64,000 nt of DNA, from the NCBI RefSeq assembly GCF_024266585.1, contig NZ_CP100647.1, positions 248,001-312,000 of the forward strand, read 5' to 3'. Made by a program: the position numbers and the translations under genes. The notes under the pieces were generated by a model, which did not search any database, was not told where the DNA came from, and saw nothing but the letters and a program-made list of their open reading frames with translations. The stretch's first letter is position 1. Each line of letters starts with the position of its first letter. Below, piece after piece: positions 3,065 through 29,434 of the stretch. This DNA comes from Xanthomonas sacchari (lineage in GTDB: Bacteria; Pseudomonadota; Gammaproteobacteria; Xanthomonadales; Xanthomonadaceae).

Positions 3065-4228
3065 CTACGCCGAGAGCATCGCCTCGCGCGTCACCTGCGC
3101 CAGCGAATCGCGCGAGATCGCCGCGATCGACTTGGCGCCGGTCAGGGTCATGGCCACCTGCATCTCCTTCTCGATCAGGGTCAGCAGATGCTCCACCCCG
3201 GCCTGGCCGGCCGCGGCCAGCGCGTAGACGAAGGCGCGGCCGAGCAGCACCGCGTCGGCGCCCAGCGCCAGCATGCGCACCACGTCCAGGCCGTTGCGCA
3301 CGCCGGAGTCGGCCAGGATCTTCAGCTCGCCCTTCACCGCATCGGCGATCGCCGGCAGCGCCCGCGCGCTGGACAGCACGCCGTCGAGCTGGCGCCCGCC
3401 GTGGTTGGAAACGACGATGCCGTCGGCGCCGAAGCGCACCGCATCGCGCGCGTCGGCCGGGTCGAGGATGCCCTTGATCACCATCGGCCCGGACCAGAAT
3501 TCGCGGATCCATTCCAGGTCCTTCCAGGTGATCGACGGGTCGAAGTTGGCGCCGAGCCAGCCGATGTAGTCGGCCAGTCCGGTGGGATGGCCGCGGTAGG
3601 TGGAGATGTTGCCCAGGTCGTGCGGGCGCCCGCGCAGGCCCACGTCCCAGGCCCAGCGCGGGTGGGTGACGGCCTGCAGCATGCGCCGCAGCGGCGCATT
3701 GGGGCCGCTCATGCCCGAGTGCGCGTCGCGGTAGCGCGCGCCGGGCACCGGCATGTCCACGGTGAACACCAGGGTGGTGACGCCGGCCGCCTTGGCCCGC
3801 TCCAGTGCATTGCGCATGAAGCCGCGGTCGCGCAGCACATAGAGCTGGAACCACATCGGCCGGTCGATCGCCGGCGCCACTTCCTCGATCGGGCACACCG
3901 ACACCGTGGACAGGGTGAACGGCACGCCCTTGGCCGCCGCCGCCTTCGCCGCCTGCACCTCGCCGCGGCGCGCGTACATGCCGGTCAGGCCCACCGGCCC
4001 CAGCGCCACCGGCAACGCCAGGGGTTCGCCGAACAGCTCGGTGCGCAGGTCCAGCGCCGACATGTCGTCGCGCAGCACGCGTTGGCGCAGGGCGATGTCG
4101 CTCAGGTCGGACACGTTGTGGCGCAGGGTGTGCTCGGCATAGGCGCCGCCGTCGATGTAGTGGAACAGGAACGGCGGCAGCCGGCGCTGCGCGGCGGCAC
4201 GGTAGTCGGTGGAAGCGGAAATGATCAT
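3065..4228 (-). CDS. lldD: FMN-dependent L-lactate dehydrogenase
   Basis: A 387-residue member of the FMN-dependent alpha-hydroxyacid dehydrogenases. It begins [20 protein letters not shown], the usual LldD start, and carries the FMN/active-site segment [10 protein letters not shown] (~residues 275-284) plus the [19 protein letters not shown] barrel strands. It oxidises L-lactate to pyruvate and feeds electrons to the respiratory chain at the inner membrane. It lies 14 bases downstream of a GntR-type gene on the same strand, so the pair forms an operon behind the operators at 5036-5146. Length matches the family. Confidence 0.95.
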
Positions 4229-14410: not shown

Positions 14411-14530
14411 GGCGTGCGTTCGCCGTTGCCGCGCTGCGGCATCGGCAACCCCGCGCTGCCCGCATACTCGCGGGTCGGGGAGGGAGATCGCCGCGCGCTG
14501 CATGGTGCGCGCCGATCGCAAAGGAGCGAG

Positions 14531-17500
14531 ATGAAACAGGCAATGTGCCGCAGCGCCATGCGCGCTGCGCGTGGTTTGGCCGCAATGGGTGTCTGGGGAT
14601 GGCAGCGCCTGGGGGCACATGCGATGCGATGCCTGACAGCCATCGACTTCGTACGCGCGTCATCGAATGTGCGGGCACCGCGCGTCGCGGCTAAAGCCGG
14701 TCCCACATGTGCGGTACTGCACTGTGGGAGCGGCTTTAGCCGCGACGCGCTGCACCGACACACGTCGACAAGGCAAGGCGTTACTTCATACGCCTCCAAC
14801 ACGCAGTGCACGCGCCGCATTGCACACCGCGTCATCCTGCTGTGCTCCCTCGCCTTGCCAGCGATCGCCACAGCCGCCACCCCCGAACTCCTCTTCCGCG
14901 TCTCCGCCGACAAAGGCCTGGACGCCGACGTCGCCCACGGCGACCCGCAGCCCAACTTCCGCGACAAGATCGCCCTGGTGCCCACCGGCGTGTCCGGGCA
15001 GGCGATCGAATGGGCCGACGACGGCGTGCTGTCCTGGAACGCCCCGGGCAACGTCTACACCCAACGCGGCACACTGTCGTTCTTCTGGCGTTCGCGCACC
15101 CCGGTGGGCGAAGCGCCGTTCGTGATCTTCCGCGTCGGCTACGCCGACCACACCAGCTGGGACATGGCGTGGCTGCGTATCGACTGGAACGGCCACGGCT
15201 TCGATGCCTTCGTCACCGACGCCAACCTGGCGCGCACCCGCGTCTCCTTCACGCTCGACAAGAACCCCGCGCCCAGCGCCTGGACCCACCTGGCCTTCGC
15301 CTGGGACGAGACCCGCGGCGTGCGCCTGTACGTGGACGGCAAGGAAGCCGCACGCGTGGACTGCACGCAGGCCTGCGCCGACGGCGGCTCGCTCGACTTC
15401 GACGCCGCGCTGGACCAGCTCGGCCTGGCCGCACGCGTGCTGGCGCCGCACCAGGTGCAGAGCCGCTACAACTTCCTGCGCGGCAGCGACGTCGACGAGA
15501 TCCGCGTCTACGACCGCATGCTCGATGCCGCCGGCGTCGCCGCGCTGGCCCGGCAACAGGAACCGCGCAGCGCCGAGGCCGTGCCCGACAGCGCCGCGCG
15601 CAACGCCTGGCTGCATCGCTTCGGCTGGGACCACGGCCGCGCCCCGCCGGCGCTGGACGCGCCGTCCACGCGCATCCGCAAGGTCGAGCTCGCCGATGCC
15701 AAGGACCTGAAGGAATGGATGTGGAAGGCGACCGACGGCATCGCCGAGACCACCTGGCCCGGCGTCTACAACCGCTCGCGCCTGCCCGGCCGCAACGACT
15801 ACTTCCAGCTGCCTGACTGGAACGTCTACGTCGAAGGCGGCAAGGCGCTGGACCTGGCCCTGCCCGACGAACCGTTCAACCGCATCGAACTGCGCGGCGC
15901 CGCCTACGGCCAGGCCACCTATGCCGCCGATGGCGCCACGCCTTCGCCGTTGTTCTCCCGCGCCCAGGGCACCGTGCGCAGTGTCGATCAGTTCGAACGC
16001 CGCCGCGGCGGCCACCTGCGTTTCAGCAACGTCGCCCAGGAAACCCCGATCCAGGAGATCTGGGCCTACGACGTCGGCGCCGGCGCCGAGCCGGCCAACC
16101 CAAGCGCCACGCTGCGCTACACCGTGCGCAGCGACATCGCCCCGGACTACGCCAACCTCGCCGCATTGCGCGCCTACATCGCCGGGCGCTACCCGCCGGA
16201 CGAGCGCAGCATCGTGGTCGCGCTGCCGAGCAAGGCGCCGTCGCGCAAGCGTGCCGACGACAAGACCGCGGTGCCGCCGCTGCCCATCGTGCACGTGCTC
16301 ATTCCGTCCAATCTCGGCGATGCGCCGGCCGCGCAGCCGCTGATGCGCAGTTGGTCGTACGGCTGGGAGAACATGCACGACGGCCTGGACGGCATCGCCA
16401 TCGACCTGCCGGCGCTGCAGCTGCCGGCCACGCACAACGGCCTGATCCCGCTCAACATCCGCGTCAAGGACCCCATCTGGCCGGGCCGCGACATGCTCGA
16501 CGTGTCGGTCTCGGTCGTGCCGGGACAGGCACGCACGCTGTGGCTGGACCTGCGCGACCGCATCCTCGGCGACGACAGCCTGATGCTCAGCATCGCCTCG
16601 GCCGCGCCCGGCTTCGACGCGCGCGCGCTGGATGGCGCGCAACTCCGCCTGCTGTTCAAGCCGCGCGAACAGGCCAAGGCCGAACACATCGCCGACCGCT
16701 TCAACCAGGTCAAGGACAACTGGGGCTTCCTGGTCGAGGAACACACCACCTCCAAGCGCCAGCGCCTGTACGCGCGCCTGGATGCCGACATCCACGACCT
16801 GCTGCGGGTGGACCCGGACAACGCGCTGGGCCGCCAATACTGGGCCGACATCAGCTACGGCAACCAGGGCCCGCTGCCGGTGCAACTGCCGCAGCCGCCC
16901 AAGGGCGTGCCGGGCTGGGCGTTCTGGCAGTTGGAAGACCTGAAGGCCACGCGCCGCTACATCAACTGGTGGATCGACGAACGCCAGGTCGACTACGGCG
17001 ATTTCGGCGGCGGCATCTCCGACGATTCCGACCTTACCCAGCAATGGCCCGGCGTCGCCCTGATGGGCGTGGACCCGGACAAGCTCAACGCTTCGCTCAC
17101 CGCCCTGTCCGACGCCAACTACCGCAACGGCATGTTCACCGACGGCCTCTCCACCATCGAGACCGACGAACTGCATTCCTACGAGGAGGGCATCAACATC
17201 AACAGCGCCATGCTCTACCTCAACTGGGGCGACCCGCTGACGGTGGAGCGGCTGATGCCCACGGTGAAGGCGTTCGACCGCATCATCCAGGTCAACCCGC
17301 AGGGCCACCTGCTGTTCGCCAGCAACTGGTTCGGCGGGCGCAAGGTCTACCGCGAACCGAACTGGCAGTGGCAAAAACCCTATTCGTTCCCGATCCTGCA
17401 CCCGGCGCTGCTGCTGGGCGGCTACAACGCCGACCCCAACAGCCGCCGCATCGTCACCGGCCTGGCCGACGGCTACCTGGCCCACGCCTACACCGACGCC

Positions 17501-18643
17501 AAGGGCCAGTGGGCGCTGCCCAACGAGATCAACTGGGCCACCGGCAAGACCCGCGGCGGCAGCCTGTTCGACGGCAGCGGCGGCCCTGACACCCTGCATA
17601 CCTTCTGGGCGGCGTACCGCTGGACCGGCGATGCGCGCTACCTCAAGGCCATCGACTACCGCGTCGCCAAGGCCGGCCCTGGCGGCCTGTCCATGCTCAA
17701 CGAAAACTTCCTCGACGTGCTCGACAAGCGCGACAGCTGGGGCGCCAGCCTGGTCAAGGCGGCAGCCGACGCCGACCCCGACGCCACCCCGGACTTCGCC
17801 CACCACGTCGCCTGGGAACAGACCGGCGACCCGCGCTGGCTGGAAACCCTGTACCGCGCCGAGACCCGCGACAAACTGCAGACCTTCTACATGAACACCG
17901 ATGGCCACTGGTGGAGCGACCGCGTCGAATCGCCCACCGTGAACCTGCAGCGCGCCCGCCTCGGCGGCGTCGCCCTCAAGCGCAACCAGACCTACCCCGG
18001 CCACACCGTCAGCTGGCGCTTCGCCGACCCGGAAGGCGCGGTGCAGGTGGCCCTACTGTTGCCGAAGCCGCGGCAGGATCGCTTTACCGTCATTGGCTAC
18101 AACACCAGCGGCAAGGTGCAGCGGGCGCAGATGACAGGGTGGAATGTCACCGCCGGGCAATGGCGCATGCGTGTGGGCGTGGATCGCGATGGCGATGGGA
18201 AGATCGATGGCAAGGCTGCCACCCGCGAGTTCGCGTTCGAGAAGAGCGGAGCGGTGGAGGTGGAGTTCTCGGCCGGCAAGACGGTGGTGATGGAACTCGA
18301 ACTGGTTGCGCCTGCCGCGGTGCCGGTCGAGCAGCGGCCGGATTTGGGGATCGGGCGTGGGGATGTGCGGGTGATAGGTGATGCCATCGAGGTGACCGTG
18401 CATAGCCTGGGGCACGTGGATGCGCCGGCGGGGTTTGTGGTGTTGGAGGATGCGCGGGGTCGGGAAATGGCGCGGGCGGCGTTTCCTGCGTTGGAGGCGC
18501 CGCGGGATTTGGAGCCGAAGACGGCGCTGGCGCGGCTGGTGGTGGCTGGTGGCGAGAGTGCCAAGGGAGGCCGAGTGCGCATCGTCACCGCGGGCGAAGT
18601 GGCCGAACTGACCCAGCGTAACAACGCGGGGGACGTGCCCTGA
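14531..18643 (+). CDS. Very large LamG-type secreted carbohydrate-active protein (candidate)
   Basis: The only start with a good ribosome site (AAGGAGCGAG) is the ATG at 14531, giving 1370 residues. A standard signal peptide (RRIAHR then VILLCSLALPAIATA) begins only at ~residue 95, and a REP-like repeat is translated as residues ~51-73, so the true start is uncertain. After the signal come a LamG/concanavalin-like domain (~113-340), a central ~600-residue region with DFGGGISDDSD (~824-834) and many Trp/Asp, resembling helical-toroid glycoside hydrolases or lyases, and a CARDB-like C-terminus. Downstream of the uronate-type TonB receptor, it may process a polysaccharide at the surface. No enzymatic activity is proven. 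Confidence 0.75.
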   Translation: MKQAMCRSAMRAARGLAAMGVWGWQRLGAHAMRCLTAIDFVRASSNVRAPRVAAKAGPTCAVLHCGSGFSRDALHRHTSTRQGVTSYASNTQCTRRIAHRVILLCSLALPAIATAATPELLFRVSADKGLDADVAHGDPQPNFRDKIALVPTGVSGQAIEWADDGVLSWNAPGNVYTQRGTLSFFWRSRTPVGEAPFVIFRVGYADHTSWDMAWLRIDWNGHGFDAFVTDANLARTRVSFTLDKNPAPSAWTHLAFAWDETRGVRLYVDGKEAARVDCTQACADGGSLDFDAALDQLGLAARVLAPHQVQSRYNFLRGSDVDEIRVYDRMLDAAGVAALARQQEPRSAEAVPDSAARNAWLHRFGWDHGRAPPALDAPSTRIRKVELADAKDLKEWMWKATDGIAETTWPGVYNRSRLPGRNDYFQLPDWNVYVEGGKALDLALPDEPFNRIELRGAAYGQATYAADGATPSPLFSRAQGTVRSVDQFERRRGGHLRFSNVAQETPIQEIWAYDVGAGAEPANPSATLRYTVRSDIAPDYANLAALRAYIAGRYPPDERSIVVALPSKAPSRKRADDKTAVPPLPIVHVLIPSNLGDAPAAQPLMRSWSYGWENMHDGLDGIAIDLPALQLPATHNGLIPLNIRVKDPIWPGRDMLDVSVSVVPGQARTLWLDLRDRILGDDSLMLSIASAAPGFDARALDGAQLRLLFKPREQAKAEHIADRFNQVKDNWGFLVEEHTTSKRQRLYARLDADIHDLLRVDPDNALGRQYWADISYGNQGPLPVQLPQPPKGVPGWAFWQLEDLKATRRYINWWIDERQVDYGDFGGGISDDSDLTQQWPGVALMGVDPDKLNASLTALSDANYRNGMFTDGLSTIETDELHSYEEGININSAMLYLNWGDPLTVERLMPTVKAFDRIIQVNPQGHLLFASNWFGGRKVYREPNWQWQKPYSFPILHPALLLGGYNADPNSRRIVTGLADGYLAHAYTDAKGQWALPNEINWATGKTRGGSLFDGSGGPDTLHTFWAAYRWTGDARYLKAIDYRVAKAGPGGLSMLNENFLDVLDKRDSWGASLVKAAADADPDATPDFAHHVAWEQTGDPRWLETLYRAETRDKLQTFYMNTDGHWWSDRVESPTVNLQRARLGGVALKRNQTYPGHTVSWRFADPEGAVQVALLLPKPRQDRFTVIGYNTSGKVQRAQMTGWNVTAGQWRMRVGVDRDGDGKIDGKAATREFAFEKSGAVEVEFSAGKTVVMELELVAPAAVPVEQRPDLGIGRGDVRVIGDAIEVTVHSLGHVDAPAGFVVLEDARGREMARAAFPALEAPRDLEPKTALARLVVAGGESAKGGRVRIVTAGEVAELTQRNNAGDVP
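14682..14749. repeat. Inverted pair of REP-like hairpins inside a reading frame
   Basis: Arms GCGTCGCGGCTAAAGCC and its complement around 14727-14749 enclose a short spacer. The core is the CTTTAG variant of the dispersed element. It lies between the ribosome site of the large LamG gene and its signal peptide and keeps the frame open. Confidence 0.85.
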
Positions 18644-18900: not shown

Positions 18901-19110
18901 ATGTTTACCAAAGTCTCGATCATCGCGGCGCTGGCCGGCTTTGCCATCTGCCTGGCCGCCACATCTGTGGATGCACGTGTGCGTGCGTCTGGTTCACACC
19001 ACACGACCAGTCATGGCGGGCATTACGCGTCGGGCCATGGTTCTTCGCATAAGGGGGGGAGCTACCGTAGCTCGAGTACCAACAATCAATACCGCCGACA
19101 TAAACCTTGA
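18901..19110 (+). CDS. Small secreted His/Ser/Gly-rich protein
   Basis: A 69-residue protein with AAGGGGAAATCG before its ATG and a clear signal peptide (MFTKVSIIAALAGFAICLAA, cleavage near VDA-RVRA). The mature ~43 residues are rich in His, Ser, Gly and Tyr (SHHTTSHGGHYASGHGSSHK) with a basic end. The composition suggests metal binding or a disordered periplasmic peptide; no known family is recognised. It marks the last gene before the cassette array. Confidence 0.6.
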   Translation: MFTKVSIIAALAGFAICLAATSVDARVRASGSHHTTSHGGHYASGHGSSHKGGSYRSSSTNNQYRRHKP

Positions 19111-19202: not shown

Positions 19203-19260
19203 GCACTCTGACCACGATTTTATTTACGCCGCGTTTAGGTGGTCCAAGAGTAGTTAGTGC
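19203..19260 (+). other. Degenerate attC-like recombination site (left edge of cassette array)
   Basis: GCACTCT-GACCAC on the left pairs imperfectly with GTGGTC-CA-AGAG and AGTGC on the right, leaving extrahelical bases as in attC hairpins. The right end AGTAGTTAGTGC resembles the right end of the site at 21481 (AGTAGTTAGAAC). The GTTAGTG core deviates from GTTRRRY. It sits 14 bases before the first cassette gene. Confidence 0.5.
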
Positions 19261-19274
19261 TCAGGAGGAAAGAC

Positions 19275-19655
19275 ATGCGCGACGGAATTCTTGAGCTATT
19301 CGTAAAGTTCTCGGAGTATGATGAGAATCCAATCGAGTCTGCTGTTACGCTCATTGTTGGCGGTTTCTTAGTGTCCGGGCATATCATCAGCAAAGAGAAG
19401 TTCATTGAGATCAATCCTGTGACCGCTTGGATAAAAGAGATCGGAGCCAAGCAGGAGGAAGAGAATGAAGAACCTGACGATGCATCTAAGCCAGACGACG
19501 ACGGAAAGCGCCGATACATCCATCTTCGCGATGCGCAATACTTCTCTCCCGGGCAGCCTCCCATCCCAGGTACCGGTTATGTATCGTGTCGTATCAAGCT
19601 ATCTGATGTTGCCGGTTTCCATTTTGGCTATCTGGCTACGTCGCCAGAGGGCTAA
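19275..19655 (+). CDS. GvpU-like protein in a gene cassette
   Basis: A 126-residue acidic protein with AGGAGGAA before its ATG. The order of motifs follows gas-vesicle accessory protein GvpU: ILELFVKFSEYDE, a beta segment AVTLIVGGFLVSGHIIS, an acidic middle (EEENEEPDD), then YIHLRDAQYF and KLSDVAGFHFGYLATS. No other gas-vesicle gene is present, so its role here is not flotation by itself; GvpU-like genes do occur alone in proteobacteria. Lower G+C than the flanks and a stop codon inside attC mark it as a cassette gene. Confidence 0.65.
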   Translation: MRDGILELFVKFSEYDENPIESAVTLIVGGFLVSGHIISKEKFIEINPVTAWIKEIGAKQEEENEEPDDASKPDDDGKRRYIHLRDAQYFSPGQPPIPGTGYVSCRIKLSDVAGFHFGYLATSPEG

Positions 19656-19709
19656 CAGTTTATTCAAGCCGACGCCGCTTCGCGGTGCGGCTTAATTCAG
19701 GCATTAGGC
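19650..19709 (+). other. attC site 1 (aadA-type)
   Basis: A 60-bp site starting GGCTAAC (containing the stop codon of the GvpU-like gene), with central arms AAGCCGACGCCGC/GCGGTGCGGCTT around TTC, and ending GCATTAGGC. It is very close to the attC of aadA cassettes. The right core has ATTAGGC instead of GTTAGGC, which may weaken recombination. Confidence 0.88.
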
Positions 19710-19738
19710 GGCAACCATACATTCAGTGGAGTTTTGAG

Positions 19739-20383
19739 ATGAAAAAGCGTTTTGCTGCCATAGCAGCTATCTTTGGTGTTGCTGCTCTCGTTGTCGCCTA
19801 CCGGGTCACCAATACAACCACGGCCGGATTCCTGTCAGGACTGGCTGGAAACTTACTATCTTTAGCACTCGGAATATTGATAGTAAATCTCTATCTTGAG
19901 AATAAGTCGAAGAGATCGGCGGTACTCGCCTTACTCAGTGTTACGCAGCACCATGTCGCCGCATTTCACAATCACTGGATCAGCACGTGCTGGGCGCACT
20001 TCGGAAAGGACCGCTTTGGGCAAATCGCGAAAGAATACTTGGGATCGGGCGGCAAACCTATTGCGTTGAGCGAGGCCACGAGGAAAGAGATATACCATCT
20101 CTATAATGGCGACCAAACAATGCAGAAGTACCTACTGAATCTTGATGAATCCCTCACCGAGCTTTCAAGACTTGCGGGCTGGAGCTTAAATCCAGATATT
20201 CTGGAAGCATCTCTAAAAACACGACTTTCAATCTCTCAACTCCGCGAAATCAGCTTGAATGATTCTCCCGATGCGTACACACAAGTGACAGAGCATTTGC
20301 TTGATACAGATATCAGTTGTGGCATTGTTCTAAAGTCGCTGATGGACGTGGCAGGTGTGCAATTCAAAGACATTGCCGCCTAA
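19739..20383 (+). CDS. Two-helix membrane protein in a gene cassette
   Basis: A 214-residue protein with GTGGAG before its ATG. Two N-terminal membrane helices (~residues 5-22 and 30-54) are followed by a ~155-residue helical cytoplasmic domain with no recognised motif. The stop codon is part of the attC at 20378. G+C is well below the chromosomal genes. The topology (paired helices plus soluble domain) is shared by some membrane-anchored effectors of defence systems, but nothing specific supports such a role. Confidence 0.6.
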   Translation: MKKRFAAIAAIFGVAALVVAYRVTNTTTAGFLSGLAGNLLSLALGILIVNLYLENKSKRSAVLALLSVTQHHVAAFHNHWISTCWAHFGKDRFGQIAKEYLGSGGKPIALSEATRKEIYHLYNGDQTMQKYLLNLDESLTELSRLAGWSLNPDILEASLKTRLSISQLREISLNDSPDAYTQVTEHLLDTDISCGIVLKSLMDVAGVQFKDIAA

Positions 20384-20437
20384 CAATACATTCAAGCCGA
20401 CGCCGCTTCGCGGCGCCGCTTAATCCAGGTGTTATCC
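20378..20437 (+). other. attC site 2 (aadA-type)
   Basis: A 60-bp site: GCCTAAC at the left with the gene's TAA inside, arms AAGCCGACGCCGC/GCGGCGCCGCTT around TTC, and GTTATCC at the right end. The left part is nearly identical to site 1. The right core departs from GTTRRRY. Confidence 0.88.
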
Positions 20438-20438
20438 C

Positions 20439-20610
20439 TCACACGGCGCAGTTATGGCACAACGCTTCGTCGGGGGTCTTCCACCCCAGTGTCTGATGCG
20501 GCTTGCCGTTGAGTAGGCGGGCGATGTCGTTGAGCATGGTCTGGCTGACCAATGACAGGTCCGCGCCCTTGGGCAGGAACTTGCGCAGCAGGCGGTTGGC
20601 GGTTTCATTG
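20439..20610 (-). pseudogene. C-terminal remnant of an IS30-family transposase
   Basis: In-frame minus-strand sequence without a start codon, beginning NETANRLLRKFLPKGADLSL and continuing with MLNDIARLLNGKPHQTLGW to a stop at 20439. The motif order (ETANRLLR-x-FLPKG, then LN-x-KP-x-x-TLGWKTP) is the end of the DDE domain of IS30-type transposases. The catalytic core and the inverted repeats are missing. It begins directly at the right end of attC site 2. Confidence 0.75.
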
Positions 20611-20619
20611 CTGGATAAC

Positions 20620-21437
20620 GGAGTTAGGTTGACTTATTCATTGATCGTGGTGGGTTTGCGTGGCCGATGGGCTGGCCTTACACCAGCGAAGCGGCCAGTC
20701 TTGGCCTCGACCATGCCGTGAAACGCATCGTGGCCGAGAGCCCGCTGTTGCTGAAGGTGAATGCGGATGTCGGCAAGCAGTTCGTCGCTTAGGACTTCAT
20801 CAAGCAAGGCGCGATAAGCGCTGGATCGCTCGGCTGAATCATTCCCCAGAGCGGGCCAGGAAGGGTGGGGCGTTAGTGTCGAGTGTTCCCGCTGACCGAG
20901 ATTAGCCGCGCAACTGGACCAGCGATACGTGGTCGGATCGTCTATGAGACGAGCGCGTACCGGGTTGAGTTCGATGTAGCGATAGCAGCGCAACACGTAG
21001 TCGGCACTGTCCACAGGGCATGACGTGTAGCGCCCTTCCCAGAGCGTGCCGGTACGGCCGTGACGTCCATTGAAGATGGCCACATAGTGACGACCGAGTC
21101 GCTGCATTAGCTGTCCGATCCTTCCAGCCTCCGGCGGCGTGGCGAGCAGGTGCACATGGTTGTCCATCAGGACGTAGGCATGTAGCTGGCAGCCGGTGGC
21201 ATGCAGGGCACCACGCAGGAGGTGCAGATAGCGCCTGCGGTCGCCGTCATCCAGAAAACAGGGAAGGCGATTATTGCCGCGCTGTACGATATGCTGTGGT
21301 ATGCCAGGAAGATCAAGGCGAGGAAGGCGAGCCATGCCGACGAGCGTGGTCACCGATCGCGATCACCGACATCGAGCAAGCTCCGTGACTATTGTCAGGC
21401 ATCGAAGTGTCGGCCTGTAGGAAGTGAACCTGACCCC
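20620..21437 (-). mobile_element. RAYT unit with flanking inverted repeats
   Basis: A REP-associated tyrosine transposase gene bounded by GGAGTTAGGTTGACTT (20620-20635) and AAGTGAACCTGACCCC (21422-21437). These form a 16-bp inverted repeat with about three mismatches. The unit lies between attC site 2/IS30 remnant and the next attC-like site, so it interrupts the cassette array. Confidence 0.65.
20634..21335 (-). CDS. REP-associated tyrosine transposase (IS200-like Y1)
   Basis: A 233-residue Y1_Tnp protein starting MARLPRLDLPGIPQHIVQRG. The HUH metal motif is NHVHLL (~residues 60-65), preceded by YVLMD. The GTLWEGRYTSCPV segment and the YVLRCYRYIELNPVRARL helix with the candidate catalytic tyrosine follow. 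Such enzymes nick and join single-stranded DNA at REP hairpins and usually do not form true insertion sequences. The protein appears intact. Homologous activity on the dispersed hairpins of this window is not shown, since its own flanks differ in sequence. Confidence 0.88.
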   Translation of the reverse strand: MARLPRLDLPGIPQHIVQRGNNRLPCFLDDGDRRRYLHLLRGALHATGCQLHAYVLMDNHVHLLATPPEAGRIGQLMQRLGRHYVAIFNGRHGRTGTLWEGRYTSCPVDSADYVLRCYRYIELNPVRARLIDDPTTYRWSSCAANLGQREHSTLTPHPSWPALGNDSAERSSAYRALLDEVLSDELLADIRIHLQQQRALGHDAFHGMVEAKTGRFAGVRPAHRPRKPTTINE

Positions 21438-21480
21438 ATTCTAGGTTGCTGGCAGAAGCAAGGACCCACCGATGTTTTGG

Positions 21481-21554
21481 CCTAATTGACGGCGCTCATT
21501 GATTCAGTGAGGATTGCACTATTCCGCTTTTAGGCGGTGCAATAGTAGTTAGAA
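21481..21554 (+). other. attC-like site (second sequence family)
   Basis: Starts CCTAATTGACGGCGCTC and contains the hairpin ATTGCAC...CCGC/GCGG...GTGCAAT. It ends AATAGTAGTTAGAA with a GTTAGAA core, and closely parallels the site at 24824. It immediately precedes the 384-residue cassette gene. Confidence 0.6.
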
Positions 21555-21577
21555 CTGCGTCATCCAATCGAGGCCTC

Positions 21578-22732
21578 ATGAACGTAGCGTTCCTCTTCAA
21601 TTCAGATCATCCTGACTTGGGAAGCTGCTACGGCGGCCGGGTAATGGACTTGATTTTAGGTTCGAATATCCTACAGGGTGAGTCCCGCCCGATGCGAGTT
21701 TCCGTGGGGGACATCCTCACTTTCAGTCAAAGTAAAGACCGGACTTATGATGCTCTCGAGAAACTATGTCGCAATGTGTATGTACCCATATCATTCGATC
21801 GGCTGAAAAAGCCTCAATTGGAGGTGACATACAATACTGCGACTGTCTACTGCTGGTTGTTTCAGAACATGACGCAGGCAGTAGCGGAAAAGCTCAACCA
21901 TAAGTTGCAAACTAATGAATTTTATTTAGGCTGCATGGATGTGATTTTTTCTAGGCCGCTTCATCTGCAGCTATTCCGAAACAGCTTGATCGAGACGTAC
22001 AGGCTGACGGGCAGAAGGTGCGCCATCTTCTATGATATGGATCATAACGAAGAACCCGATACTTGCTTGAAGAAGTCATTTGAACGAGAGGGATTTGAAG
22101 TTGAGTACGAGGACCAAGGTGCTCGTCGGACAATTTTCGACAATTATGACTCTCTAGAGCATTTCAAGCGGGTAGAGTCATTTAAGTTCTTCTGCTCCAA
22201 GCTACCTGCCCTAAGCGATGATGATGCGTCGGCAATTGCGCATAGCTTGGAGGAGCTTCATCCAAAACTGTTTGACGCATTAGCAGCAGCGGCGCGAACA
22301 CTAGAACGAGCTGAGACTGAAGAAGACTATGCTCAAGCAGCTCTTTCGGGTAGACGGATGCTCGAACGAACAGCAGACGCTCTGTTTCCTCCTCAAGAGG
22401 CTGACTGGAACGGGCGCAAAGTCGGTCCCGCTCAATACAAAAATCGCCTTTGGGCGTACATTGAAAAAGCTATTTCTAGCGTCGACACACCAGCTGATCG
22501 CCTGAAGATACTTGGAAAGGAGGCAGACCGCCTTATCGAGCTTTTCAACTCAGGACTTCATTCCAGCCCAACTCGGGAGAAGGTTGAGCTAGCATTCCGC
22601 GATCTCGTTATCTGGCTTTCTTCTGTTATCGATATAAACCCGGCAATGGCTCGAGACCCATATCAGCCTTACGGGTTAGAAATTGACTCGTTTATGAGGT
22701 CAATCCTCGCCGAGACTGACGGCAAGATCTAA
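21578..22732 (+). CDS. 384-residue cassette protein of unknown function
   Basis: No family is recognised for the N-terminal ~210 residues, which look alpha/beta (MNVAFLFNSDHPDLG, GRRCAIFYDMDHNEEPD). From ~residue 215 the protein is helical: AALSGRRMLERTADALFPP, then LGKEADRLIELFNSGLHSS and FRDLVIWLSSVID, a layout reminiscent of DUF4145/HEPN-like domains, with Asn-x3-His in NSGLH. This likeness is by eye only. The gene is AT-rich, starts 24 bases after one attC-like site and ends inside attC site 3. A defence function is possible but unsupported. Confidence 0.65.
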   Translation: MNVAFLFNSDHPDLGSCYGGRVMDLILGSNILQGESRPMRVSVGDILTFSQSKDRTYDALEKLCRNVYVPISFDRLKKPQLEVTYNTATVYCWLFQNMTQAVAEKLNHKLQTNEFYLGCMDVIFSRPLHLQLFRNSLIETYRLTGRRCAIFYDMDHNEEPDTCLKKSFEREGFEVEYEDQGARRTIFDNYDSLEHFKRVESFKFFCSKLPALSDDDASAIAHSLEELHPKLFDALAAAARTLERAETEEDYAQAALSGRRMLERTADALFPPQEADWNGRKVGPAQYKNRLWAYIEKAISSVDTPADRLKILGKEADRLIELFNSGLHSSPTREKVELAFRDLVIWLSSVIDINPAMARDPYQPYGLEIDSFMRSILAETDGKI

Positions 22733-22785
22733 CGATTCAATCAAGCCGCGCCACTTCGTGGTACGGCCTAGTTCAGGCGTTACCC
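22727..22785 (+). other. attC site 3 (aadA-type)
   Basis: A 59-bp site starting ATCTAAC with the TAA stop of the preceding gene inside. Arms AAGCCGCGCCAC/GTGGTACGGCCT surround TTC, and the right end reads GCGTTACCC. It is the most diverged of the three aadA-type sites but clearly homologous. Confidence 0.82.
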
Positions 22786-22817
22786 TCCAGGAAATCTGAG
22801 CCAATTCCGCCCTTCGC

Positions 22818-22846
22818 AAGAACAGTTTGAGTTAGCTACTGTTCTT
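22818..22846. other. Perfect 9-bp hairpin in spacer
   Basis: AAGAACAGT at 22818-22826 and ACTGTTCTT at 22838-22846 with an 11-base loop. It lies between attC site 3 and the lipoprotein gene, in a 230-base spacer that otherwise shows nothing. It could be a terminator, but no T-run follows. Confidence 0.4.
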
Positions 22847-23012
22847 GGCTTAGACCTCAGTGTCGATACATCTGATGTGGCTGCGACTCGCTTGCCCAGT
22901 TGAGCGGGTGGTGCATCAAGCGAAGTCCTAGCCAGAAAGCACGCTGTTGTGCGCAATGAACCGACAGGTCTACTCTAATCCAGCTGTTTGGTTGATCACA
23001 TTAGGGGGTGTG

Positions 23013-23330
23013 ATGAAGTGTGGAATGCTTTCTTTGGTCCTGCTGGCGGGTCTTGTGGCATGTCAATCCGCACCCTCGCCGCGGCCGGCCGTCGCACATG
23101 GGGACGGCGCGTCGCCGGACCATCCCGTCGATCTGTCCGCGGCGCATAGCGAAGGCGCCGGCATCGCGGCGCAACGCACATGGCTCGATCAGCACTACCC
23201 CGGCGCGCGCATCAAATCGCAGTCCCTGTTGTTCGAGCCATCGGCCATGGACCTCATCACGATCGTGTTGCCCTCCGGCGAGGAGCGCGAGGTCTACTTC
23301 GACATTTCGTCCTACTTTGGGAAGTGGTGA
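23013..23330 (+). CDS. Putative lipoprotein
   Basis: A 105-residue protein with a lipoprotein signal (MKCGMLSLVLLAGLVAC, lipid-modified Cys17 in LVAC) and a short mature domain: TWLDQHYPGARIKSQSLLFE, then ITIVLPSGEEREVYFDIS. G+C returns to near-chromosomal values. The preferred ATG at 23013 follows AGGGGG. The family is not recognised; it is probably a periplasmic lipid-anchored protein. Confidence 0.6.
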   Translation: MKCGMLSLVLLAGLVACQSAPSPRPAVAHGDGASPDHPVDLSAAHSEGAGIAAQRTWLDQHYPGARIKSQSLLFEPSAMDLITIVLPSGEEREVYFDISSYFGKW

Positions 23331-23339
23331 GCGGCGCTA

Positions 23340-23689
23340 ATGGATGTCATGCAGGCATCTGTGATCGGACTCCTTGCGCTGGTTGCGTGCGCCGGCCCTG
23401 CCTTCGTCGTGGCGATTGTCTTCCCTCCCGCCTGGCGTTGTGGCTGTCCCTGTTCACATCGACCACGACCTTTCTCTGTCTGCTTTGCGTCGACTGGTTC
23501 CTGTGGGATGGGTTGGGACCGGACGCGGTCACATCGCATGGGATGGAGGCGGCCTCGCGTGTCGCCGTCAGTGCCTGGTTTCCGGCGTTGTGTTGGGTGC
23601 TCCTCAACGGTTCGGCCTATCTTGTCTATCGATGGAGACGTAGGAAACGTGCCGTAGCCGCCCCGTCATTTGAAATGCGATCCGAATGA
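23340..23689 (+). pseudogene. Frameshifted membrane protein gene
   Basis: The reading frame from 23340 encodes MDVMQASVIGLLALVACAGP and a first membrane helix up to about 23425. The protein then continues sensibly only in the -1 frame (SRLALWLSLFTSTTTFLCLL, SAWFPALCWVLLNG, ending in a basic tail at 23689). A single-base deletion near the CCCTCCCGCC stretch explains this. It lies 9 bases after the lipoprotein gene, so both were probably one operon. A sequencing error cannot be excluded. Confidence 0.6.
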
Positions 23690-23863
23690 AGCAGGGCCGA
23701 TACGTTTTCGAACTAGATAGAGGAAGTAGTGGCGCACCGGAACGAAAGGACTACGCCAGTCCCCCAAGCCCGGCGAAGATGACGGCTGCTCGCGAACGGA
23801 GCTCCTGTGCGATGATGCAACATCACTTCTACCGTATCGCAGAGCGACCTAGGCACCTACGGC

Positions 23864-24259
23864 ATGCTGCGACGTATCCAAACTCTTGGAGCCGCGATCA
23901 TCGTGGCGTGTGTCGTCGGATTCACGCTCCTCGGCTACTCGCCGATGCCGTGCGCCTGCGAGACACCATGGCAGTTGGTGTATGCCGCTTCCGGCTTGCC
24001 GGTCGATCGCCCCTATCGGACCTATGACGCGGCGCAGTTGCAGCATGGCCTTGACCGCCATCTTGCGGGATCGACCGTCGTCGGTTCGAGCGACTACTTC
24101 TTCGACGCCTGCCAGGAAACGGCGCCCCGGCGGTGGCGATGCGTCATCGCCACCGAAGAATCGCTGCTGCGAAAGTCGGGCTACGTGATAGAGATGGACA
24201 CGGACGCGGACGGACGGCTCGAACGCACCCATGTAACGACCTACTCGGCGTGGCGCTAG
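23864..24259 (+). CDS. Hypothetical membrane-anchored or exported protein
   Basis: A 131-residue protein with an N-terminal hydrophobic stretch (residues ~8-27, AAIIVACVVGFTLLGYSPMP) and a soluble domain with several cysteines (CACETPWQ, FFDACQ, WRCVIA), which may form disulfides outside the cytoplasm. It ends in DADGRLERTHVTTYSAWR. No family is recognised. It stands alone in a patchy region of decayed genes. Confidence 0.5.
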   Translation: MLRRIQTLGAAIIVACVVGFTLLGYSPMPCACETPWQLVYAASGLPVDRPYRTYDAAQLQHGLDRHLAGSTVVGSSDYFFDACQETAPRRWRCVIATEESLLRKSGYVIEMDTDADGRLERTHVTTYSAWR

Positions 24260-24531
24260 CCGCCAGTCCCCCAATGTACGCAGCCGGCAGCGCGCTGGAA
24301 GGGCACTCAACCATGGGGTACGGTTAATCCATACCTACCTCGCATCGCACTACAATGTAGCGCAGCGTTTGGATGGACAGGAGCGACATGAGCAAGCTAA
24401 TTGGGGGCAGAGTGCACTTTCTCGTCTGCGAGACCTTTAAAAGATCATTCTGACCAGGTTTTCCCTGACCTTGGTTTTCCGACCGACCCTGGTTTTTCGC
24501 TTCGCCGAATTCAATTAGGACGCCGCCGACC

Positions 24532-24828
24532 ATGTTGTGTATTAAGGCAACCCTTATCGCGGGATCCGCTCACGAGAAATTCCATGCAGGGGAGCATGTA
24601 GGAGCCGTCCTGTTCGCGGCGACGATGTCCCTCGAGCAAGCAGAAGATATGCTTGTGCCTATGTTGGCGGCTCGAGGTTGGGCCACGATGACCATCGAGC
24701 GCTATAAGGAAGTTCACGAGATCGAGGCGGTGAACGACCCGCTGCTGCGCGAAGCATTCCTCGATGCCGAAGCATCAGGAAGCGGCTATGTCATATTCCC
24801 CGAGAAGCCGGGCAGCACATTAGGCTGA
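24532..24828 (+). CDS. Hypothetical cassette protein (98 aa)
   Basis: A small soluble protein (MLCIKATLIAGSAHEKFHAG, then AAARGWATMTIERYKEVHEI). Its TGA stop lies in the attC-like site at 24824, the arrangement expected of an integron cassette gene. No recognised domain. No convincing ribosome site is seen before the ATG, so a different start is possible. Confidence 0.5.
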   Translation: MLCIKATLIAGSAHEKFHAGEHVGAVLFAATMSLEQAEDMLVPMLAARGWATMTIERYKEVHEIEAVNDPLLREAFLDAEASGSGYVIFPEKPGSTLG

Positions 24829-24895
24829 TTGACGGCGCTCGATAGCTCGGCGAGGATCTTCGACCGCCGTATTATCGGTCCAATAGCAGTTGACG
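24824..24895 (+). other. attC-like site (second sequence family)
   Basis: Begins GCTGATTGACGGCGCTC, with a stop codon inside, contains the hairpin GACCG...CGGTC, and ends CCAATAGCAGTTGACG. Position by position it follows the site at 21481 (shared ATTGACGGCGCTC, GAGGAT, CAATAG-AGTT). The core GTTGACG is degenerate. Confidence 0.55.
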
Positions 24896-24898
24896 CCC

Positions 24899-25132
24899 AT
24901 GCCACGACATCTTGCTCTTTTACTGCCTTTGCTCTTTGCGGCATCGAATGTTGCGAACGCCAGGTGTCTACCAGGTCAGCCGGCGACGGCTCGGCTCACT
25001 GGCGTCCTTGAGCGCGTCACGTTCCCAGGAATTTCTGGTAAGCAAAGCTTTTTCCAATTGTGGCATCCGGAGGAAGACGATCCAAAATGGCCATTAATCA
25101 CAACGTTGATGCTGCCAGATGTAGTTGCATGA
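24899..25132 (+). pseudogene. Truncated DUF4431-like secreted protein
   Basis: A 77-residue product with signal peptide MPRHLALLLPLLFAASNVAN and the N-terminal DUF4431 pattern (CLPGQ, then LTGVLERVTFPGISG, then LITTLMLP). Typical DUF4431 proteins are ~130-150 residues and continue with a PxCV motif and a second half; both are missing here. The same reading frame continues past the stop into the HEPN-like gene at 25208, suggesting that two genes were joined and truncated. Confidence 0.5.
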
Positions 25133-25872: not shown

Positions 25873-25942
25873 GTGAACACGGTGACAGCAGGCGGACGCG
25901 CGTGGCTTGGTATCCTGGCGCGCCATTGCAGCAAGGTCTCCA

Positions 25943-26401
25943 ATGAGCCAGAGTGCAGAGCGCGCTGACGCGACTAACGTCCCGCTGTATCACCTGATCA
26001 CGCCGAAATCGCACGAGGTGCTCGGCCCGTGGGCGGACGCGTTCCCGGCGTATACCGTCGTGGTCGGCTACTCGAGTCTCGGCCACTTCTTTCTGCATGA
26101 TCCAACCAGCCAGGATTACGCGGTGCTGCATCCGTTCAAGGCCGCGGGCAAGTTATATGGCGCGCACGCCTCCACTGCGGTGTTCGAGGCGGCCATCCTG
26201 CGCGATGCGGGCTTCGAGGAGTACGTGTTGCGCGGCGACCACGTCCGCGCGATCGCTGCGCGTCTTGGCCCGTTGAAGCCCGGGCAGATCTATATCCCGC
26301 AACCCTATCCGACGCTAGGCGGAACGGAAGCACCCGAGACCTATGACAAGGGCGATGTGTGGGTCTTTGCGGAGCTTGTCGCGCAAAGCGTGGGTCTGTG
26401 A
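25943..26401 (+). CDS. Tdi1/DUF1851-like immunity-type protein
   Basis: A 152-residue soluble protein. Residues ~35-60 (VVVGYSSLGHFFLHDP) and the C-terminal LGPLKPGQIYIPQPYPTLGG with LVAQSVG resemble the C-terminal domain of T6SS immunity protein Tdi1 (DUF1851). Such proteins neutralise toxins of polymorphic or type VI systems. No toxin, VgrG or Rhs gene is nearby, so it would be an orphan. The ATG at 25943 follows AGCAAGG. Confidence 0.6.
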   Translation: MSQSAERADATNVPLYHLITPKSHEVLGPWADAFPAYTVVVGYSSLGHFFLHDPTSQDYAVLHPFKAAGKLYGAHASTAVFEAAILRDAGFEEYVLRGDHVRAIAARLGPLKPGQIYIPQPYPTLGGTEAPETYDKGDVWVFAELVAQSVGL

Positions 26402-29251: not shown

Positions 29252-29434
29252 GTGGGGGCCTCTTGCCGTGAGGTGGAGGCTCGGTGAGACCGGATGTTTC
29301 TGTTGCCCAGGCCCAGCTGGTTCTGCGCCCACGCTGGCCGCCGGCGCGCTCGGGGAAGCGCTCGCATTGACGGCGCGCAGCGGCTAACCGAGGATCGCCA
29401 TGCCGCGCCTGGCGGCCCAAGGGATCCGCGATCC

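Follow-up and report, generated by a model that had tools for sequence, protein, structure and literature searches.

A cluster of gene cassettes in Xanthomonas sacchari, lying behind a gene for a LamG-domain protein (lamG), contains two sequences that resemble integron attachment sites (attI), each placed in front of a cassette. The window analysed here is a stretch of 64,000 nucleotides, positions 248001–312000 of a single-contig genome of 4,889,028 bases; it holds three attC recombination sites (s1, s2 and s3) and three further elements (h1, h2 and h3). By class the cluster is an ordinary CALIN (cluster of attC sites lacking a neighbouring integrase), a type known at lamG, and the attI-like docks are its new part. 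I favour, at a probability of roughly 0.68, the reading that the lamG locus is an old attI dock without an integrase of its own, which would have been filled in trans by the integrase of the integron at ilvD, and would now be a fossil in this genome. Sister genomes have the attI-like element at lamG too, and a second genus has it behind lamG; a cassette boundary falls at the element's GTT, and a relic of the integrase is preserved. Comparison genomes and loci are referred to by G and L numbers, respectively.

attI-like cores in front of the cassettes

I built a sequence model (R1) from ten attI of sister genomes, none of which lies at lamG. Six of these adjoin both ilvD and integrase sequence (G003, G014, G016, G008, G004, G011), two stand 5–6 kb across ilvD with an integrase fragment (G002, G018), one is found with a 64-residue integrase stub 30 kb from ilvD (L084), and one lies 16 kb from ilvD with no integrase match (L076, position 2331). 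A second model (R3) was made from ten sister copies of a longer element, in which a promoter-like half precedes the core. The two models describe three elements of the window:

19229–19259, + strand: h1, attI-like core (R1 at 19229–19257, E = 2.7e-5; R3 over its positions 36–71 only, the upstream promoter-like half being unrecognisable)
21485–21554, + strand: h2, promoter-like half and attI-like core, ending in GTTAGAA (R1 at 21524–21552, E = 1.7e-8; R3 at 21485–21552, E = 1.9e-13)
24827–24893, + strand: h3, element of the h2 family with a decayed attI core (R3 E = 4.8e-14; no R1 match up to E 5)

The R1 E-values of h1 and h2 come from a search of 343 kb of loci, which also returned full-length attI in two arrays with no integrase match nearby (L081, L083), the relic at this genome's own ilvD, and lamG-locus copies of sister genomes (L063, L069, L060). 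Over the whole 4.9 Mb genome, three R1 matches reach an E of 0.1 or less, namely the ilvD relic, h2 and h1. The 29-base core of the sister attI is present in both h1 and h2, which on sequence grounds are well supported as attI homologues; as they match attI, they do not qualify as attG sites, which are unlike both attI and attC. A role for h3 as a working attI was considered and is not supported, its core being decayed. The initial annotation had taken hairpins at 19203, 21481 and 24824 for diverged attC sites; this assignment falls, as the attC covariance model described below (R2) finds none of the three elements up to E 5.

The likeness to attI is confined to the core. The lamG elements match R1 positions 18–48 only, and the bases before these form a different, promoter-like half. 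When 420-base stretches are compared, lamG-type elements and ilvD-type attI have only their last 24–32 bases in common (blastn, E 0.01), so the shared part is the part that the integron integrase, IntI, should read. The upstream half is common to h2 and h3, and in h2 includes promoter-like boxes (TTGACG, 17 bases, GAGGAT) that are similar in its relatives. In many full-length copies the −35 box is covered by TTGAC-N-GTCAA, possibly an operator.

R3 has a match at E 0.1 or less in 17 of 20 genomes of the genus, some of these being the core of an ilvD-type attI alone. Full-length matches at E 1e-8 or better all belong to the lamG locus (that of G005 assigned by its flank), except one each in G004, G002 and G003, of which the last two lie near the far end of an integrase-linked array. 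The genes behind R3-type copies differ. Across 247 genomes of the family, searched with stricter filters, R1 matches in 26 genomes from 8 genera, and R3 in 24 genomes from 7 genera. In a second genus (g17), one element comes immediately after lamG, with five attC downstream of it (L184), and three others have a recognised core with an attC following (L181, L182, L183).

Two side observations concern this family. In G008, a RelA/SpoT-domain gene and an attC come after the lamG dock (L189, 10672–11721), and core-less, promoter-like copies stand before several different genes in the lamG region of sister genomes (e.g. L066 9855, L068 3342) and at 29366 in the window.

attC sites and the class of the cluster

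The covariance model R2 was derived from 44 attC of sister-genome arrays, with the window excluded. In its alignment both sides have changed in 9 of 20 pairs, and the observed values were reached by none of 500 shuffles. The sites that it identifies, and the cassettes that they close, are the following:

19275–19655, + strand: cassette 1, open reading frame (ORF) of 126 amino acids, weakly GvpU-like (NCBIfam NF041667, 57.5 bits, short of the cut-off of 70)
19650–19709, + strand: attC s1 (R2 72.7 bits, E = 2.9e-19)
19739–20383, + strand: cassette 2, ORF of 214 amino acids without a family match
20378–20437, + strand: attC s2 (R2 68.0 bits, E = 7.9e-18)
21578–22732, + strand: cassette 3, ORF of 384 amino acids without a family match, with relatives 50–69% identical in five named records
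22727–22785, + strand: attC s3 (R2 45.4 bits, E = 6.7e-11)

Judged by these scores, s1, s2 and s3 are genuine integron attC sites. The initial annotation had placed three aadA-type attC at exactly these coordinates and would have abandoned them had their covariance scores fallen below threshold; all three score strongly. Apart from these sites in reverse orientation, R2 has no further match in the window up to E 5. As had been described, each site overlaps the stop codon of the preceding ORF (3/3), and the enclosed genes are AT-richer than their surroundings (G+C fraction 0.496, 0.476 and 0.481, against 0.684 for the window).

The R' boxes (ATTAGGC, GTTATCC and GTTACCC) are as the initial annotation gave them; it had read them as degenerate. 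In integrons, the bases after the G of R' derive from the DNA that follows the last cassette. The odd tails of s2 and s3 therefore need not reflect decay, and the G-to-A change in s1 is a true departure from the core.

Three attC fall inside 3.2 kb, the genome has no TIGR02249 match that exceeds the cut-off, and tblastn gives no match to an integrase in the window. The cluster thus has at least two attC close together and no integron integrase nearby, as a CALIN does; the earlier view of an integrase-less cassette cluster, with no intI in the window, is borne out. It occupies a variable interval between two conserved flanks:

14414–18643, + strand: lamG, left conserved flank, ORF of 1409 amino acids with an uncertain start codon (Laminin_G_3, Pfam PF13385, E = 4.2e-9)
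25907–26401, + strand: Tdi1-like gene, right conserved flank, also conserved in sister genomes (Pfam PF08906, E = 1.5e-8)

In sister genomes too the array is preceded by lamG. The interval from lamG to the Tdi1-like gene varies in size and attC content among them, rather than showing the one gene order across the genus that would have spoken against mobile cassettes.

CALINs at lamG have been reported in Xanthomonas, so the class is already known. According to PMC12444791 (2025), CALINs occur away from ilvD in about half of its Xanthomonas genomes, consistently adjoining lamG and/or secF in five species. Their placement is read there as support for ancestral integron activity, and their fixed positions are contrasted with the scatter of attG insertions. 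The cluster described here is like those in having attC beside lamG, away from ilvD, with no integrase nearby, and in being conserved across species; the attI-like docks, the promoter-like half and the second genus are added here. In the text of that paper, attI occurs five times (introduction, methods and the contrast with attG) and never for a CALIN, and the words gshA, glutamate and sacchari are absent. The open-licence literature searched yielded no account of orphan attI docks in Xanthomonadaceae. The initial annotation had noted that the cluster lacks the ilvD neighbour of ancestral xanthomonad integrons; ilvD is indeed about 360 kb away, but the LamG-domain neighbour itself marks a CALIN locus reported in the genus (PMC12444791).

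Across the genome, 11 R2 matches have an E of 1 or less: three in the window, five near ilvD (628–631 kb), two at 1058–1059 kb and one weak. The two at 1058–1059 kb (L193), which are attC-like, adjoin a pair of small genes that resemble each other, and may be another remnant of cassettes. A secF CALIN was also considered for this genome and set aside, as no attC match is found at secF (3.23 Mb).

Docks as probable cassette boundaries

I scored whether an attC follows each attI-like copy on the same strand within 1.5 kb (attC threshold E 0.001), with the status of the core taken from the profile of the R1 alignment. A downstream attC is present for 25 of 26 full-length attI, for 10 of 11 promoter-plus-attI elements with a recognised core, and for 2 of 12 with a decayed core. 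The difference between the last two groups (one-sided Fisher test, p = 5.5e-4) is an association and not drawn from a clean sample. Upstream, the corresponding counts are 0/26, 3/11 and 1/12, and the value for random positions in the same loci is 0.32.

If a cassette entered as a circle, its first bases should be reverse-complementary to the flank of its own R''. In 168 junctions, cassette starts agree with their own R'' flank at a mean of 5.90 of 8 positions, and shuffled pairs at 4.19. The filter for attI-like junctions covered loci up to L084 and allowed at most 6 mismatches to the core motif, in which GTT or GCT had to be retained. The four lamG junctions that passed it have rank p-values of 0.10 (h1), 0.069 (h2), 0.13 (L063) and 0.003 (L069), which combine to 0.0012 by Fisher's method; the junction from s1 to s2 gives 0.009. 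Two full-length attI fail this test (L079, p = 0.90; L078, p = 1.00).

Cassette 3 offers a direct comparison. A relative that is 69% identical, also at lamG, is found in G013 (Xanthomonas sp. NCPPB 1128). Here the cassette starts at the GTT of h2; in G013 the GTT at which it starts belongs to an attC remnant (E = 0.0003). The sites to the left of GTT differ, and the stretch from GTT to the start codon is only moderately alike. The G013 cassette opens with GTTAGATCTTGC, 12 bases that form the perfect reverse complement of the flank of R'' in the window's s3, as would be expected of one circular cassette. This 12-mer has one further occurrence in the 1.27 Mb compared, inside the region of a gene in L176 (overlapping copies aside). 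The start of a first cassette at the core GTT is thus seen for h2 through the G013 comparison, and weakly for h1 (p = 0.10); a role of the docks as cassette boundaries is reasonably supported.

These data bear on the view that the elements are an ordinary promoter family of the lamG region, their likeness to attI being a 5'-leader hairpin held in common, without recombination function. Copies do precede genes without a detected attC, including most DUF4431 genes, and the full-length matches at E 1e-8 or better concentrate, with three exceptions, in the lamG region. I nevertheless regard this view as decidedly unlikely: the core is 85–97% like that of ilvD-type attI in the copies that precede cassettes, its conservation is associated with the presence of attC, cassette boundaries fall at GTT, and the three genomes with no attC match at E 0.01 (G001, G012, G019) have no element match at E 0.1 either.

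The cluster could also be a plain CALIN produced by off-target insertion of the attG type, or by rearrangement of the ilvD array, without any special dock. Insertion at attG is described in PMC12444791 and PMC12901181, the former of which itself credits ancestral integron activity. A plain CALIN appears very unlikely here, as cassettes 1 and 3 are preceded by sites that match attI, and a single location has been used across species and in a second genus.

Cassettes are on occasion common to the two platforms. One family has a member at lamG in G006 and another in this genome's ilvD array (78% amino acid identity), with an alignment that spans the cassette and runs into the attC on both sides. 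For a second pair (L061 and L072, 75%), the DNA aligns only over an attC in the stretches chosen.

The ilvD locus, the integrase and other attI copies

A search of the whole genome for the integron integrase family gave matches at the level of XerC/XerD only (best 74 bits, cut-off 265); the cut-off is exceeded in 5 of 20 genomes of the genus. The lamG stretches searched with an integrase query (the window, L060, L063, L069, L070, L184, L189, L190) gave no match at E 1 or less. The lamG locus is thus no complete integron, as no integrase gene adjoins its attI-like docks.

At ilvD itself (631997–633763), this genome still has five attC, together with an attI (E = 3.4e-13 in the genome-wide search) and the remains of an integrase, which comprise residues 4–66 (E = 2.7e-14) and a weaker piece of residues 315–335 (E = 0.13). 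The lineage's integron therefore sat at ilvD and lost its enzyme. The initial annotation, which had proposed a search for intI and the ilvD context, was correct that no intI lies in the window, but it missed this locus.

Other attI copies lie apart from an integrase. Full-length attI lead cassette arrays in L081, L083 and L192, with no over-cut-off integrase match nearby; the preceding gene encodes glutamate-cysteine ligase (gshA) by Pfam in L081 and L192, and L083 has the same neighbour by sequence. These gshA-type copies have up to about 200 bases in common with the ilvD attI region, and L083 retains a 33-residue integrase trace (E = 0.003). They look like truncated duplicates of an integron head, unlike the lamG type. 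A further attI, with an integrase stub or fragment, lies about 5–6 kb across ilvD in G002, G018, G013, G007 and G010 (L075, L080, L194, L195, L196).

Such copies make it conceivable that the lamG cluster is the remnant of a complete second integron, with integrase, attI and array duplicated together and the integrase later lost, as seemingly happened elsewhere in the genus. The attI away from integrase in L083, L084, L194, L195 and L196 keep a stub of its first 33–64 residues, and the gshA type retains its long common segment. The lamG-type elements are different in having the core alone in common with ilvD-type attI and an upstream half of another kind, about 100–190 bases after lamG in G018 and G008, and no integrase trace appears in the lamG stretches searched; I consider this origin unlikely.

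A proposed secondary platform at lamG

In the reading that I favour, the lamG locus would be a secondary integron platform lacking its own integrase. The attI-like docks h1, h2 and perhaps once h3 follow lamG, and IntI, while still made at ilvD, would have acted in trans, joining circular cassettes to the docks at the core GTT in the usual recombination of attI with attC. In h2-type elements, expression of the first cassette would come from the promoter-like half, in the manner of the promoter Pc. The integrase gene would since have been deleted in this genome, leaving the docks as fossils. IntI binding, recombination in trans and promoter activity are the steps that I infer.

Several results weigh against this reading. 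With the attC threshold loosened to E 0.01, the adjacency counts become 10/11 and 5/12 (p = 0.019), and the loci are not independent, because they are related and were partly fetched for matching. The junction tests of h1 and h2 are weak singly, and the junction filter excluded other lamG elements (L060, L189). Behind h2, cassette 3 starts with GTTAGAACTGCG, in which 5 of 11 positions past GTT match the s3 R'' flank, compared with 9 for G013. Taking as a lamG cassette the longest ORF before an attC, only 3 of 66 have a homologue among the 202 other cassettes examined. The cores of L184 and L070 are not recognised as attI, and a match to the promoter element or to attI within 1.5 kb of the lamG stop is found at 5 of 15 lamG loci of the genus (the window, L060, L063, L070, L189), or 6 with L069 at 1.8 kb. 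In a sigma-70 consensus scan, the + strand of the region has no predicted promoter; the one call made lies on the minus strand, across h1. Finally, duplication could have brought in the array of G018 along with its attI.

Comparable arrangements are known. The sedentary chromosomal integron at ilvD in Xanthomonas has attC and an attI core of the same kind, but an integrase gene beside its attI, which the lamG locus lacks. According to PMC9892861, a CALIN in the Shewanella prophage M16-3 begins with its own attI, and is likewise an integrase-less array; it concerns one prophage and an attI of the same type as in its complete integron, whereas here the locus is chromosomal, spans species and has the core alone in common. 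Displaced attI pieces can recombine in the Delta-attI gene cassettes of class 1 and 2 integrons, as described in PMC12901181; in those cassettes, which belong to mobile integrons, the piece takes the place of the attC, and here an attI-like element precedes cassettes at a chromosomal site.

Two cassettes behind copies of the integrase's landing site could explain why the lamG spot keeps collecting cassettes. More broadly, and at somewhat less than even odds, the integrons of Xanthomonadaceae may be distributed, with one ilvD integrase serving several permanent integrase-free attI docks (at lamG with its own promoter, at gshA with a full-length attI, and a second attI near ilvD), kept over genus-level time by selection on the 29-base core. 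CALIN positions would then be set by docks and not by chance insertion, orphan docks offering a testable cause for their fixity. Integron counting would change as well, as a single integrase may supply several arrays that have separate promoters, and attI searches confined to the neighbourhood of integrases would miss orphan docks.

Other genes and repeats of the locus

The remaining genes between the two flanks are:

18901–19110, + strand: small gene of 69 amino acids between lamG and the array, within an ORF, with same-locus DNA matches in sister genomes
20634–21353, − strand: gene like REP (repetitive extragenic palindromic)-associated tyrosine transposases, separating the two cassette groups (Pfam Y1_Tnp, E = 3.5e-12; NCBIfam NF047646, 59 bits, short of the cut-off of 80)
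24890–25132, + strand: ORF of 80 amino acids behind h3, shortened relative of a DUF4431 gene (tblastn)

In sister genomes the DUF4431 gene stands behind an h3-type element, and the full-length relative in L068 matches DUF4431 at E = 3.2e-11. For cassette 1 (19275–19655), the sub-cut-off likeness is to GvpU, a gas vesicle accessory protein. The cassette 3 protein (21578–22732) has no match in Pfam or NCBIfam; its relatives at 50–69% identity come from Xanthomonas, Paucimonas, Neisseria wadsworthii, and Chlorobiaceae and Anaerolineae bins (L174–L178). Rfam at gathering scores gave no match in the window, and defence-system models none for six proteins. An IS30 fragment at 20440–20617 is not claimed, as Pfam returned nothing for the one frame tested. 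A short repeat with AGAGTGCACTTT and TCTGACC arms recurs between genes of the locus, at 24399–24480 in the window and at 4140–4210 and 5780–5940 in L062, and also adjoins decayed sites in G013.

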